A DNA stretch of 64,000 nucleotides, from NCBI RefSeq assembly GCF_000214595.1, contig NZ_AFIG01000001.1, forward strand, positions 1,034,382 to 1,098,381, given 5' to 3'. Below, piece by piece: positions 5,557 to 53,895 of the stretch. The stretch comes from Methylophaga thalassica MP (lineage in GTDB: Bacteria > Pseudomonadota > Gammaproteobacteria > Nitrosococcales > Methylophagaceae). Made by a program: the position numbers and the translations under genes. The notes beneath the pieces were generated by a model. It saw nothing but the letters and a program-made list of their open reading frames with translations. It ran no database searches and was not told the DNA's origin. Position 1 is the stretch's first letter, and each line of letters opens with the position of its first letter.

Positions 5557-5799
5557 TCATCTAGATTCTGAATCAGACAGAGCTCGCAGCTTTTCTGCTA
5601 ATGCTTTTGTATCCGTTTGATGTTCTTCTGTCGGATGAATAGTGGCAATGGTATTAATCGTCTGACGAATCTGCTGTAAATAATTACGGCAGCAGCTACA
5701 GATAACCAAATGTAAAAACAAACCGATACGTTTTCTCAAAGGCAGATCTCCTTCAAGATAGTTGCTGGCTTCTTCTGCTACATCTTTACATTGAAACAT
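5557..5799 (-). CDS. Zinc-motif anti-sigma factor (zf-HC2-like)
   Basis: An 80-residue protein immediately behind an ECF sigma gene. It has a CKDV...SNYLEGDL opening typical of zf-HC2 anti-sigma domains and an H-x3-C-x2-C zinc motif (HLVICSCC). It has no convincing membrane segment, so it looks like a soluble redox- or metal-responsive anti-sigma factor rather than a membrane-bound one (inference). The frame is open further upstream inside the sigma gene, but ATG 5799 begins the recognisable domain, lies 4 bp past the sigma stop and has GAGGA about 12 nt upstream. It is expected to sequester the 5804-6415 sigma factor. Confidence 0.8.
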   Translation of the reverse strand: MFQCKDVAEEASNYLEGDLPLRKRIGLFLHLVICSCCRNYLQQIRQTINTIATIHPTEEHQTDTKALAEKLRALSDSESR

Positions 5800-5803
5800 C
5801 TGC

Positions 5804-6415
5804 TTATAGTCCTCGGTACTCTTCAATTTTGTGATGCAATGTAGTCCGTGCCCGGTGTAAAAGCACTCTAGCATTAGACGAACTAATATCAAGAATGTTA
5901 CAAATTTCTGACATGTCTAGTCCTTCCATATCATACATAGTTAACATAGCGCGCTGATTGGCGGGTAACTGGCGGAAGCTTGTTTCGATAATAATTCGTA
6001 GTTGTTCATTTTCTAACAAAGCGTCTGGCGTGTCTTCATCCCAGGGTAGGACGTCATCTAAGCGATGTCCACGTTCATCAAATTTGTCGTGTGAAACAGA
6101 CTCCCAGCCGTCATCAAGCGAAACTTGACGTTGCTCGCGTTTAAAGCGGGTCTTAGCGCCGTTGCTGGTGATTTGTAATAACCAGGTTTTCAGGCTTGAG
6201 CGACCCTCAAAGTTAGGTAATGCTTTGATAGCAGATAACCAGGCATCCTGAACAATTTCATCAGCAAATGCTTCTCCAACAATAGCTCTTGCTACGGTTA
6301 ACATCAGCCCGTGGTATTGAGATACGACATAGTCAAACGCTTTCGCATCGCCATTGATAAGTTGTTTAATTAAGCTTTGCTCATCGGCGGGACTCAGCTT
6401 CACTTTTTTTTTCAT
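5804..6415 (-). CDS. ECF-type RNA polymerase sigma-70 factor
   Basis: Alternative sigma factor of about 203 residues. Region 2 is visible in FDYVVSQYHGLMLTVARAI and DEIVQDAWLSAIKALPNFEG. Region 4, the -35 binder, is visible in QLPANQRAMLTMYDMEGLDM and SSNARVLLHRAR. The open frame extends to 6457, but ATG 6415 (MKKKVKLS) fits family starts and leaves the divergent promoter region free. It is paired with the anti-sigma gene downstream and faces the secreted Cys-repeat gene across a short gap with an ECF-type promoter. Control of that operon is the likely role. Confidence 0.92.
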   Translation of the reverse strand: MKKKVKLSPADEQSLIKQLINGDAKAFDYVVSQYHGLMLTVARAIVGEAFADEIVQDAWLSAIKALPNFEGRSSLKTWLLQITSNGAKTRFKREQRQVSLDDGWESVSHDKFDERGHRLDDVLPWDEDTPDALLENEQLRIIIETSFRQLPANQRAMLTMYDMEGLDMSEICNILDISSSNARVLLHRARTTLHHKIEEYRGL

Positions 6416-6421
6416 TTTGTT

Positions 6422-6449
6422 TGTAACAATCCTTTGTGAGGCTCGTCTA
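6422..6449 (+). promoter_or_regulatory. Candidate ECF sigma promoter driving the Cys-repeat/DoxX/MsrPQ operon
   Basis: TGTAAC at 6422-6427 and CGTCTA at 6444-6449 are separated by 16 nt. This is the AAC/CGTC pattern seen in many ECF promoters. It points toward the gene at 6511, in the gap between the sigma gene and its likely target. The match is by eye; no start-site data exist here. Confidence 0.6.
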
Positions 6450-6510
6450 CTATGCAAGACGGGATGAAAGCCCGTTGGAATTTTAACAACAATAGAAGGA
6501 AGTAATCATC

Positions 6511-6834
6511 ATGGCAACATTAAATAAATCATCAATCGCTATTGCATCATTTGCAGCAGGTTTAGCGATGGCACCATCAATGGCCAGTGCAGGTAATAAC
6601 CCATTTGCGTCGACGGAATTGTCGAGTGGCTATATGCAGCTTGCTGAACACCATGCTGAAGAAGGTAAATGTGGTGAAGCGAAATGTGGTGCTGAGAAAA
6701 AAGCTGAAGAAGCTAAATGCGGCGCTGAGAAAAAAGCTGAAGAAGGTAAATGTGGTGCAGAGAAAAAAGCCGAAGAAGCGAAATGTGGCGCTGAGAAAAA
6801 AGCCCATGAAGCAAGCTGTGGTGGTAATAAATAA
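6511..6834 (+). CDS. Secreted Cys-repeat low-complexity protein, HvfA-like RiPP metallophore precursor candidate
   Basis: A 107-residue protein. Residues 1-27 form a signal peptide ending MASA, with cleavage before GNN. After a short linker (about 28-50), the C-terminal half is built from EGKCG/EAKCG motifs in an 11-residue repeat, KCGAEKKAEE(A/G). Cysteines fall at 54, 59, 70, 81, 92 and 103, so spacing is 11 after the first pair. Exported EGKCG-repeat proteins of this look are called HvfA-family precursors, whose cysteines are modified by an MNIO enzyme (HvfB) with HvfC and bind copper (family knowledge). Here a DoxX gene follows, but no HvfB or HvfC gene is adjacent. It is preceded by AGAAGGAAG and an ECF-type promoter. 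An alternative is an unmodified thiol-rich metal buffer. Confidence 0.8.
   Translation: MATLNKSSIAIASFAAGLAMAPSMASAGNNPFASTELSSGYMQLAEHHAEEGKCGEAKCGAEKKAEEAKCGAEKKAEEGKCGAEKKAEEAKCGAEKKAHEASCGGNK
6682..6813 (+). repeat. Four tandem 33-bp coding repeats
   Basis: Four in-frame 33-bp units encode KCGAEKKAEEA, KCGAEKKAEEG, KCGAEKKAEEA and KCGAEKKAHEA, followed by a degenerate SCG unit. Synonymous differences (gct/gca/gcc, gaa/gag) separate the copies, so the array is not a very recent expansion. Confidence 0.9.
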
Positions 6835-6850
6835 AGTACGCTGAAAGGTC

Positions 6851-6880
6851 AAATAAGGGCTCATTGAGCCCTTATTTTCT
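6851..6880 (+). terminator. Hairpin between the Cys-repeat gene and doxX, probable attenuator
   Basis: A perfect 12-bp stem AAATAAGGGCTC/GAGCCCTTATTT (6851-6862 and 6866-6877) with a 3-nt loop and a short U-rich tail. It sits between the precursor-like gene and doxX, and partial read-through would make the first gene far more abundant than the rest. Confidence 0.8.
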
Positions 6881-6893
6881 TTAGGAGAACCTC

Positions 6894-7523
6894 ATGTTTT
6901 GTCGTCTTTATCAAACACTCTTTTATCAGTTGAATAAAACCCGTGCTTTGGACTTTATTGCACCCGTTTTGTTGCGACTATATCTAGCGCCTGTTTTTTG
7001 GGTAGCTGCCAACAACAAATGGAATCCGTTTGATGCTGATAGCTCTCTGAATAATACGATTGCCTGGTTTGCTAACCCGGACTGGGGGTTGGGTTTACCT
7101 TTTCCAGAGGTCATGGCGTATCTAGCTTGGGGGGCTGAATATTTTGGTGCCATTTTTCTGGTTCTAGGTCTGGGAGTCCGCTTAGTGTCTATTCCGCTAA
7201 TGATTACGATGATCGTCGCTATGGTCACTGTCCACTGGAAAAATGGCTGGCAAGCAATTCACGACACAATGAGTCCTTTTGCTTCTGCTGATGTCAATGA
7301 AGCTATAGAGCGCTTACACAAGGCAAAAGAAATTTTGCAGGAATATGGTCATTATGACTGGTTAACGCAACATGGTAATTTCGTTGTACTGAATAATGGC
7401 ATTGAGTTTGCGGCAACCTATTTTCTCATGTTGCTCGTTCTATTTTTTATCGGTGCAGGAAACTATTTGAGTGTCGATTACTGGCTGAACAGACGTTGTC
7501 AGCAAAGTGGGGAGGGTAAGTAA
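6894..7523 (+). CDS. DoxX family membrane protein (HvfD-like)
   Basis: A 209-residue inner-membrane protein with about four hydrophobic segments (near 22-40, 75-95, 98-115 and 168-190). It carries the DoxX-type RLYLAPVFWVAANNKWNPF start and a hydrophilic insertion at about 125-160. DoxX proteins are thought to be quinone- or redox-linked membrane components, and a DoxX member is a common partner of HvfA-type precursors (family knowledge). It has an AGGAG site directly upstream, follows the hairpin, and its stop abuts the msrP ATG. Its role is inferred from position. Confidence 0.82.
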   Translation: MFCRLYQTLFYQLNKTRALDFIAPVLLRLYLAPVFWVAANNKWNPFDADSSLNNTIAWFANPDWGLGLPFPEVMAYLAWGAEYFGAIFLVLGLGVRLVSIPLMITMIVAMVTVHWKNGWQAIHDTMSPFASADVNEAIERLHKAKEILQEYGHYDWLTQHGNFVVLNNGIEFAATYFLMLLVLFFIGAGNYLSVDYWLNRRCQQSGEGK

Positions 7524-8483
7524 ATGTTTTATAAAAAACAAAAATCTTGGGAAATAGCCGAATCTGAAGTCACCGATTATGAGGTCTATCAAAACCGTCG
7601 ACAGTTTCTTGGTACAACTCTGGCGGTGGGTTTGGCTGGTGCACTGCCAACAATGGCATTAGCCGATGTGACTGAACAACCGAAGCCCTTCGTTGACGTG
7701 AGTAAAAGTCCATTTTCCACCGATGAAGAAAAAACCGATTTTGAGTCCATCACCACCTATAATAATTTTTATGAATTTGGTACATCAAAGCAGGACCCTG
7801 CAATCAACGCCACCGCTTTTCCAGATAGCTCTCAACCCTGGAAAGTAGTCATTGATGGTGAATGTGATAAACCCGGCACATACGATTATGAGGACCTGAT
7901 AAAACCGTTCACGTTAGAAGAACGTATCTACCGAATGCGTTGTGTTGAAGGCTGGTCAATGGTTATTCCATGGATTGGTTTCCCACTGGCAGACTTATTA
8001 AAAAAAGCTCAGCCAAACTCCAATGCGAAGTTTGTTGAATTCACTACCTTGTATGACCCTAAACAAATGCCTGGGCAACGGCGTGCTGTGCTTGACTGGC
8101 CTTATGTTGAAGGTTTGCGTATTGATGAAGCGATGAATCCTTTGACTTTACTTTCCGTTGGTCTCTATGGCAAAGAGTTATTGGGTCAAAATGGGGCGCC
8201 AATACGACTCGTTGTGCCATGGAAATATGGCTTTAAAGGCATAAAGTCAATTGTGCGTATTCGCTTTGTTGAAGAGATGCCTCAGACCGCATGGATGAAA
8301 GCTAACGCCAGAGAGTATGGTTTTTATTCGAATGTTAATCCTGATGTCGATCACCCTCGCTGGAGTCAGGCAAAAGAGCGTCGCATAGGGGAGTTTCTGA
8401 AACGTAAAACTTTAATGTTTAACGGCTATGGTGAACAGGTGGCAGACTTATATGCAGGCATGGATCTTAAACGTTATTTCTGA
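7524..8483 (+). CDS. msrP: Periplasmic methionine sulfoxide reductase catalytic subunit MsrP (YedY)
   Basis: Molybdopterin enzyme that repairs oxidised methionines in periplasmic proteins. A twin-arginine signal (NRRQFLG, residues about 26-32) followed by a hydrophobic stretch predicts Tat export. The Mo-ligating cysteine lies in [15 protein letters not shown], and the C-terminal [13 protein letters not shown] segment is typical of the family. The 319-residue length is normal. It begins immediately after the doxX stop and overlaps msrQ, so it sits in the ECF-linked operon. MsrP is a known hypochlorite/oxidant defence enzyme. Confidence 0.95.
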
Positions 8484-9099
8484 ACAACGATTGTCAGCAA
8501 AGACCAAAGCAAATGTCGTAAAGACGTTGTTGTTTATTGTTTGTCTGCTGCCTCTCATTTATCTTGTCTGGGGACTTTTGACGGATAACCTCGGAGCAAA
8601 TCCTGTGGAAACCTTAACCAGAAGTTCTGGTTTATGGGCCTTACGTTTTTTATTAATTACTCTGTTGGTGTCGCCTATTCGTTGGTATACCGGCTTAACT
8701 GCGATTGTAAAATATCGGCGTATGCTGGGCTTGTATGCATTTTTTTATGCCAGCGTGCATATGCTGTTATATCTCGGCTTGGATCAGCTATTTGATATTC
8801 AGGATATCTGGAAGGATATCCTTAAAAGGCCTTTCATTACCGTAGGGTTTATCAGCTTTATACTTTTGTTGCCTCTGGTGATGACATCAACCAACAAAAT
8901 GATGAAACGACTTGGTGGCAAGCGTTGGAAACGGTTACATCGCTTGACCTATGTAATAGCGACTTTATCCTGCGTGCATTTTCTTATGTTGGTGAAAGCG
9001 GATATCCGTGAACCGATCATTTATATGATTCTTCTATCATTTCTCTTCTCCATCAGATTATTTCATTCATTGAATAAAAAAAAGCTGGTCAGCCGCTGA
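8452..9099 (+). CDS. msrQ: Heme-binding membrane subunit MsrQ (YedZ)
   Basis: Inner-membrane b-type cytochrome that feeds quinol-derived electrons to MsrP. About six hydrophobic helices are visible, with conserved histidines in [12 protein letters not shown] and [17 protein letters not shown] that would ligate heme. The start is uncertain: ATG 8452 has AGGTGG nine bases upstream and overlaps msrP by 32 bp, while ATG 8428 in the same frame would add eight residues. No obvious terminator follows. Confidence 0.9.
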
Positions 9100-53511: not shown

Positions 53512-53895
53512 ATGAACGCAGTAACAGGATTATCAACAGTCACAGGTCGTTTTTTATTGAGTCTGATGTTCATTTCAGCCGGCATTGGAAAACTCGGAGC
53601 AGGTTACGAAGCGACACAAGGCTATATGAGCATGATGGGAGTACCGACATCACTGTTGCCTTTGGTGATTGCAACAGAAATTTTAGGTGGTTTGGCGATT
53701 TTATTTGGTTTTAAAACGCGTATCGCTGCTTTCTTATTAGCTGGGTTTACCGTCATCGCAGCCGCCATCTTCCACAATAATTTTGCTGATCAAATGCAGA
53801 GCATTTTGTTTATGAAGGATTTAGCCATTGCCGGTGGTTTGTTGTTACTGGTGGCTAATGGTGCGGGTAATTTAGCTATCGACAATATTAAATAA
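53512..53895 (+). CDS. DoxX family membrane protein
   Basis: A 127-residue four-helix protein starting GRFLLSLMFISAGIGKLGAG, the typical DoxX opening, with ILGGLAILFGFKTRIAAFLL and FHNNFADQMQSILFMKDLAI. It is distinct from and shorter than the DoxX at 6894. First gene of a doxX-azoR-pirin run, with AAGGAAAA before the ATG. It is likely involved in redox or quinone stress at the membrane. Confidence 0.92.
   Translation: MNAVTGLSTVTGRFLLSLMFISAGIGKLGAGYEATQGYMSMMGVPTSLLPLVIATEILGGLAILFGFKTRIAAFLLAGFTVIAAAIFHNNFADQMQSILFMKDLAIAGGLLLLVANGAGNLAIDNIK

Follow-up and report, generated by a model that had tools for sequence, protein, structure and literature searches.

A predicted two-locus copper-peptide pathway in Methylophaga thalassica, with its own ECF sigma factor and MsrPQ as a possible repair arm

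Within a 64,000-nucleotide stretch of the Methylophaga thalassica MP genome (the window; contig C3:1034382-1098381 of a 3.26 Mb, three-contig genome of the Methylophaga lineage), the run at 5557-9099 encodes a zinc anti-sigma (ZAS)-type factor and an extracytoplasmic function (ECF) sigma factor on the minus strand, and a cysteine-repeat precursor peptide, HvfX, MsrP and MsrQ on the plus strand. From sequence comparisons, we consider it highly probable that this run is one part of an oxazolin/captophorin-type (HvfA, EGKCG) copper-peptide pathway laid out in two loci and joined by its own ECF sigma factor, with the methionine sulfoxide reductase system MsrPQ as its repair arm. A preliminary description of the run had reported no MNIO maturase, which is true locally and false for the genome, where an HvfB-HvfC pair lies 600 kb away. 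Its six genes were confirmed in place by profile searches; the ECF pair that it had described as facing the operon is present, but in divergent orientation.

The precursor operon and its distant maturases

The genome search for DUF692/MNIO and HvfC-like genes that the preliminary description had suggested, made by profile search of the contigs, yielded two MNIO genes, one of them in an HvfB-HvfC pair. This gene (locus L001, C3:1641721-1642569) stands beside a DUF2063 gene, 600 kb from the precursor operon, and its product passed the HvfB equivalog model NF003818 (443.5 against a cut-off of 360), while the DUF2063 neighbor passed the HvfC equivalog NF050145 (290.5 against 142). The closest solved structures (E up to 0.001) were 3bww, the best match of HvfB, and 3dee, the only one of HvfC. 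No precursor was listed beside hvfBC within 3.8 kb. A genuine lack of maturase in the genome is ruled out by these equivalogs. Strong support for the earlier suggestion of maturases acting from elsewhere in the genome comes from the equivalogs, from the absence of a precursor beside them and from an ECF-type promoter that both loci have. The second MNIO gene belongs to a bufferin-type cluster (L002 309-3528, C3:1206221-1210030) ordered YHS protein, DUF2282 precursor, MNIO, DUF2063 protein and DoxX; its enzyme reached neither the HvfB cut-off (185 bits, with 360 required) nor that of the bufferin model (285 bits). On that HvfB score and the absence of an ECF-type motif, we disfavor it as the maturase. 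The features of the precursor locus are as follows.

5557..5799, minus strand: anti-sigma factor, 80 aa from the ATG at 5799 (open reading frame (ORF) to 5892); NF052368, 50.7 bits against a cut-off of 50
5804..6415, minus strand: ECF sigma factor, 203 aa (ORF to 6457); sigma-70 regions 2 and 4 above the Pfam cut-offs, and NCBIfam
5876..5902, minus strand: putative ECF promoter TGTAACATTCTTGATATTAGTTCGTCT within the sigma gene, upstream of the anti-sigma gene; genome motif match and codon bias
6422..6449, plus strand: ECF-type promoter of the precursor operon, TGTAAC-N16-CGTCTA; motif in 31/32 family loci
6511..6834, plus strand: hvfA-type precursor, 107 aa; signal-like N-terminus, NPFASTELSSGYMQLA segment, six Cys-Gly; NF050137
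6851..6877, plus strand: 12-bp hairpin with T-rich tail between hvfA and hvfX, a probable partial terminator; kept in 32/32 loci
6894..7523, plus strand: hvfX (DoxX family membrane protein), 209 aa; NF050144, 234.7 bits against a cut-off of 80
7524..8483, plus strand: msrP, molybdopterin methionine sulfoxide reductase, 319 aa; NF003767, 481.4 against a cut-off of 207
8452..9099, plus strand: msrQ, haem-binding membrane partner; NF003831, 187.5 against 130; ATG at 8452 likely, ORF listed from 8428

The precursor carries six cysteines, each in a Cys-Gly pair and the second to sixth at 11-residue spacing, behind a signal peptide judged by eye. It passed the KCG-repeat domain model NF050137 (36.6 bits against a cut-off of 19.5), matched no Pfam family and fell outside the DUF2282 bufferins. 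The strict HvfA equivalog NF050188 missed it (29 bits against a cut-off of 95), which tells against our reading, and we therefore place it in the broad HvfA-type family and not as an HvfA equivalog. The preliminary description would have been undercut by the lack of any HvfA-type family match; that objection falls at the domain model and stands at the strict one. Genome-wide, the KCG-repeat model gave two matches, both inside the frame of the 6511-6834 precursor, and thus no other precursor. Among 35 genomes of the host's own family, a related precursor precedes HvfX in all 32 that bear HvfX, so the Cys-repeat array is not a chance pattern. By a relaxed pattern, an NPF..GY-like segment follows the signal peptide in 33/33 split-locus precursors, compared with 25/33 precursors beside hvfBC elsewhere.

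The split layout runs through this family. HvfX scored above its cut-off in 32 of the 35 genomes, and the survey of gene neighborhoods for MsrPQ linkage, likewise suggested beforehand, found MsrP adjoining HvfX in 32/32. An HvfB-type MNIO was present in 30 of the 35. Where both occurred, no contig placed hvfB and HvfX less than 10 kb apart (0/30, cross-read by eye): hvfB lay on the HvfX contig in 8/30, at least 49 kb off, and on a different contig in 22/30, in two of which (G012 and G025) contig ends leave a join of less than 10 kb strictly possible. A simple deletion in one strain, an explanation that the preliminary description had allowed for, is ruled out by the presence of the split throughout the family.

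The preliminary description had also offered an unmodified periplasmic thiol buffer, in which the precursor would keep its cysteines free on export and the distant HvfBC would act on another peptide. Consistent with this are the missing maturase in the local run, the missed strict HvfA model, and two incomplete genomes, G001 (55% complete) and G019 (85%), that have HvfX and MsrP and in which no MNIO was found; these two genomes also weigh against a split pathway. Against a thiol buffer, no second precursor turned up in the genome with the KCG-repeat model, nor does one stand beside hvfBC, the ECF-type promoter is common to hvfA (31/32) and hvfB (29/30), and the family genomes that lack HvfX (G011, G018 and G023, two of the three incomplete) lack MNIO and MsrP as well. 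With HvfBC present under a shared promoter, the thiol buffer is not supported, and we regard it as most improbable.

Within the run, the HvfX and MsrP genes abut and MsrQ overlaps MsrP, which is the sole MsrP in this genome and whose TAT_signal match falls under the Pfam cut-off (20.9 against 22.7). The anti-sigma has no Pfam match, and the sigma start, the ATG ending at 6415, was picked by eye. The run is flanked on one side by a DUF1244 gene and on the other by a pyruvate-dehydrogenase E1-like gene recognised by eye. A second DoxX-like stretch at 53533-53781 of the window scored 35.1 bits on the HvfX model, under the cut-off of 80. At the maturase locus, a rhodanese gene and a gene for a 250-aa exported-looking protein lie immediately upstream of hvfBC (L001 297-1408); the latter product has no Pfam or NCBIfam match, and the ECF-type motif precedes neither the exported-protein gene (26 family loci) nor the rhodanese gene (20 loci).

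The shared promoter and the sigma/anti-sigma pair

In this genome, TGTAAC-N16-CGTCTA starts 89 bases before the hvfA start codon and TGTAAC-N16-CGTCTT starts 58 bases before that of hvfB. The form TGTAACAW-N15-GTCT had three matches in 3.26 Mb, before hvfA, before the L001 hvfB and inside the sigma gene, and its reversed control had none. Two points reduce the weight of this count: the pattern was tightened after the sites were known, so that the count is not an independent test, and looser forms of the motif did no better than reversed controls genome-wide (2 versus 4 and 3 versus 3). As genome-wide counts of the looser motifs are uninformative, position and conservation were used as evidence.

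Across the family, TGTAAC-N16-18-GTC precedes hvfA in 31/32 loci, the exception being G027, where the promoter reads GTATA, and hvfB in 29/30, the exception being G007, with ATC in place of GTC. None of 119 controls carried it (2 bufferin-cluster MNIO, 5 other MNIO paralogs, 20 rhodanese, 26 upstream exported-protein, 34 sigma ORFs and 32 msrP). The −10 element was scored as GTC; that of hvfA is often AGTCTA or TGTCTA, and a CG-type −10 pattern would therefore overlook most hvfA promoters. Since the stop-to-stop ORF start fixed the stretch that was scanned, promoters behind long ORFs can escape the scan; those of L071, L039 and L084 did so and were then read directly, a reading confined to these loci and not applied to the controls. 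One row was kept per genome, the longer L107/L108 standing in for L036/L037 and L110/L109 for L053/L054, and the non-family L034 was excluded. In G027 (L085), the sigma gene is spread over three ORFs and HvfX has internal stops, with the MsrP and HvfB frames free of internal stops; this state could reflect either decay or sequencing error.

Downstream of hvfA, 32/32 loci have a hairpin with 8 or more pairs, in 28 distinct stems and often with a T-rich tail, compared with 40/1600 mononucleotide shuffles. A generic terminator scan did not list the hvfA-hvfX hairpin. We read it as a probable partial terminator that would favor the precursor over the genes downstream.

The anti-sigma gene, encoded after the sigma gene, specifies the ZAS motif H30-x3-C34-x2-C37 plus Cys4 (counted in the ORF), and C4, H30, C34 and C37 are the positions printed for Neisseria NMB2145/MseR (PMC2893595). 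On this residue pattern, we class it with the ZAS anti-sigma factors of RsrA/MseR type. The agreement with the NMB2145 positions makes release of the sigma factor by oxidants or metals plausible; Neisseria sigmaE expression was reported as unaltered by oxidative stimuli (PMC2893595), which speaks against such induction.

The third genomic match of the motif is internal to the sigma gene, its end 77 bases upstream of the start codon of the anti-sigma gene. A motif in this position could be mere coding sequence, and codon choice in 27 sigma orthologs was therefore compared. Of 203 codon columns, the two with the strongest synonymous bias were those of the −10 (TCG or GCG, then TCT), and the 11-codon stretch with the highest bias in the gene begins at the second codon of the motif, which itself occurs in 20/27 orthologs (one sequence being incomplete). 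Counting against an internal promoter, the −35 codons ranked only 81, 32 and 39 of 203, and nearby codons outside the −35 and −10 elements were also biased (ranks 4, 8 and 13), the orthologs being related. We read the motif as a putative promoter for the anti-sigma gene.

MsrPQ linkage and the history of the split

We surveyed HvfX across a named genome set and kept the best 80 of 540 confirmed stretches, several of them at contig ends. An MNIO gene lay within 5 kb in 39 of these loci and MsrP within 3 kb in 15; no locus had both, and 26 had neither. MNIO was thus nearby in 39 of the 65 loci without nearby MsrP, and all 15 HvfX-MsrP loci had the same E1-type gene downstream. The 26 Gammaproteobacteria loci in which HvfX stands without nearby MNIO or MsrP (L181, L174 and L154, for example) include some short contigs; HvfX often stands in this way, so its occurrence apart from hvfABC is common.

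In a tree of 80 MNIO proteins, which took in 30 of the named-genome MNIO rows and carried a long-branch warning for the bufferin rows, the 30 split hvfB clustered together (94/98) within a 68-member HvfB clade (100/100) and were separate from paralogs and bufferin-type enzymes. Five family genomes (L043, L045, L047, L048 and L051) have a different type of MNIO that shares 34-38% identity with the split HvfB, falls outside its group in the tree and lacks the ECF-type motif. The row nearest to the split group, with weak support (87/32), was G049, whose co-directional run reads MsrP-MsrQ-HvfA-HvfB-HvfC with a 223-base gap after MsrQ. This hints that msrPQ and hvfABC were once together and that hvfBC later moved away. 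No ECF-type motif was found in the G049 cluster, a point against our reading of the pathway.

In a sample of the class (229 genomes, 98 with MsrP at E up to 1e-90, three of the 98 in the host's own family), MsrP adjoined MNIO outside the family in only 3/95 genomes (G049, G149 and G265, by eye among the matches listed), and the 32 family loci are all syntenic, representing one ancestral arrangement in related rows. Both results count against our reading. In G149 and G265, of one family, four consecutive genes encode MNIO, a DUF2063-like protein (21-24% identity), MsrP and MsrQ, and in G265 a Cys-rich, Buf2-like small ORF (by eye) precedes MNIO. One alternative is that MsrPQ is a passenger, its adjacency an old accident kept by the shared promoter and devoid of functional link, which would be compatible with the split-pathway part of our reading. 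The single syntenic arrangement within the family suits it, as does the HvfX survey, in which MsrP was near only 15 of the 80 loci, always with that one downstream gene, and was missing near 65. It has to contend with the adjacency of MsrPQ to hvfABC in G049 and to other MNIO clusters in G149 and G265, two other families in all, and with reported co-regulation, of MNIO clusters with YedY in Caulobacter (PMC3511200) and of a DoxX cluster with MsrAB and MtsZ in Haemophilus (PMC7907618). We think a passenger role unlikely.

Elsewhere, MsrPQ homologs are encoded with small exported peptides, and this allows a further alternative, a sacrificial oxidant sink like MrpX-YedYZ/BcrXQP, in which the peptide would be oxidised instead of other proteins and MsrPQ would regenerate it. 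BcrXQP and its Azospira homologs are likewise built from an ECF pair, a small exported peptide and MsrPQ homologs (PMC8315932). The window precursor, by contrast, is Cys-rich, with one Met past the signal peptide, and does not belong with the Met-rich sinks of MrpX type. MsrPQ is not known to reduce oxidised cysteine. Precursors beside MsrPQ are not Met-enriched compared with precursors without MsrPQ (0.027, n=31, versus 0.041, n=25; p 0.45); this speaks against regeneration of a Met-rich peptide by MsrPQ, lends no support to the peptide as an MsrPQ substrate and also weighs against our own reading. An oxidant sink of this kind is very unlikely in our judgement.

The ECF-type motif was also sought outside the family, in loci L111-L190. 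In L173 (8897-10570, a Pseudomonadales metagenome-assembled genome), a 44% identical sigma factor, a ZAS anti-sigma and the same promoter type stand directly before HvfX, with no MNIO or MsrP in 20 kb by BLAST. In L163 (Pseudomonas guryensis), the motif lies 268 bp before an MNIO ORF. Apart from these two, no MsrP-less locus of L111-L190 had an ECF-type motif, not even L166 and L177 (Pseudomonas), whose hvfABCX genes are preceded by a ZAS anti-sigma and a sigma factor of 44-45% identity.

Proposed mechanism and comparison with known systems

In the two-locus pathway that we favor, a cytoplasmic zinc anti-sigma factor (Cys4/His30/Cys34/Cys37, cf. Neisseria MseR) would hold the sigma factor until thiol oxidants or soft metals disturb its site. 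The freed sigma factor, as promoter sequence and conservation suggest, would fire three promoters: that of the anti-sigma gene, as feedback, that of hvfA-hvfX-msrP-msrQ, and that of hvfB-hvfC 600 kb off. The hairpin past hvfA could yield more precursor than HvfX and MsrPQ. HvfC may recruit the precursor, perhaps via the NPF..ELSSGY segment, and HvfB, going by the enzyme families present, would convert the Cys-Gly cysteines to 5-thiooxazoles before Sec export. In the periplasm, the peptide would bind Cu(I), and MsrPQ would reduce methionine sulfoxide in periplasmic, probably copper-handling, proteins. The modification, the copper role, the induction and the joint role of copper or oxidant capture and repair in the periplasm are parts that we infer. 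We also lean, with less assurance, towards a broader proposition: that, for a ribosomally synthesised and post-translationally modified peptide (RiPP) pathway, a sigma regulon with three promoters takes the place of gene clustering, with the anti-sigma expressed from a promoter in the codons of the sigma gene, the precursor with HvfX and MsrPQ, and the maturase pair 600 kb off forming one periplasmic copper-capture and methionine-repair module.

Such a regulon would turn 'orphan' MNIO precursors into a testable case, in which precursor and maturase are paired by shared regulation and not by adjacency, and would make the promoter a handle for finding the maturases of other unlinked precursors. 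It would also tie thiooxazole-type copper peptides to MsrPQ within one operon, a link for which the cited papers, in the parts drawn on, mainly give co-regulation. A non-pathogenic methylotroph allows a test of whether peptide and repair system guard against the same stress.

The closest known counterpart is hvfABCX/RpoE2 of Haemophilus influenzae, which has an EGKCG-type precursor, HvfB, HvfC and HvfX as here (PMC13419390), and whose HvfBC make copper-binding 5-thiooxazoles (PMC13419390; PMC13097082). An ECF sigma factor and a small anti-sigma in Haemophilus also control a DoxX/COG3220/DUF2063 cluster, presumably hvf, together with periplasmic methionine sulfoxide repair (PMC7907618). There hvf is one operon and repair is by MsrAB and MtsZ, whereas here hvfBC is distant and MsrPQ lies in the precursor operon. 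The sigmaE-MseR regulon of Neisseria (NMB2140-2145, msrA/msrB) has the ZAS anti-sigma with Cys4/His30/Cys34/Cys37 and a −10 element CGTCTAAH (PMC2893595), and includes a methionine sulfoxide reductase (PMC2893595, PMC3240639); it differs in a −35 element GTMAGBWTT with a 12-13 nt spacer, compared with TGTAACAW here, and in MsrA/MsrB in place of MsrPQ. In Caulobacter, the regulon of one ECF factor, sigmaF, includes two DUF692 (MNIO) clusters, a DoxX gene and, separate from these, the YedY (MsrP) gene CC2748 (PMC3511200), but the precursors are DUF2282 bufferins, the negative regulator has six transmembrane segments and is not a ZAS protein, and the promoter is GTAACC-N16-CGAA. Azospira yedYZ-mrpX and Brucella bcrXQP share the ECF sigma/anti-sigma pair, the small exported peptide and the MsrPQ homologs; there the peptide is a proposed methionine sink, and the main text mentions neither DoxX nor DUF692 (PMC8315932).

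The precursor class found here corresponds to the Buf_EGKCG/oxazolin clusters of the MNIO landscape survey, which reports Oxidored_molyb or ferric-reductase genes in small numbers of EGKCG clusters and proposes in-trans modification for unlinked bufferin precursors (PMC12452194). The words 'methionine', 'YedY', 'orphan' and 'Methylophaga' do not occur in its main text, and in the parts drawn on no promoter link is given. A role of MsrPQ in copper homeostasis is reported for E. coli, with CusF as a suggested substrate (PMC9302797). Among the matches listed (titles and abstract openings), the open-licence literature on Methylophaga, or on MNIO or DUF692 with MsrPQ, YedY, DoxX or anti-sigma, contained no description of the split system. 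To call it an undescribed system, as the preliminary description did, is nonetheless too strong: in-trans modification of unlinked precursors has already been proposed, EGKCG clusters with Oxidored_molyb or ferric-reductase genes have been reported in small numbers, and ECF regulons that join MNIO-type clusters, DoxX and Msr enzymes are already known from Haemophilus, Neisseria and Caulobacter, of which the split layout in Methylophaga is a variant.

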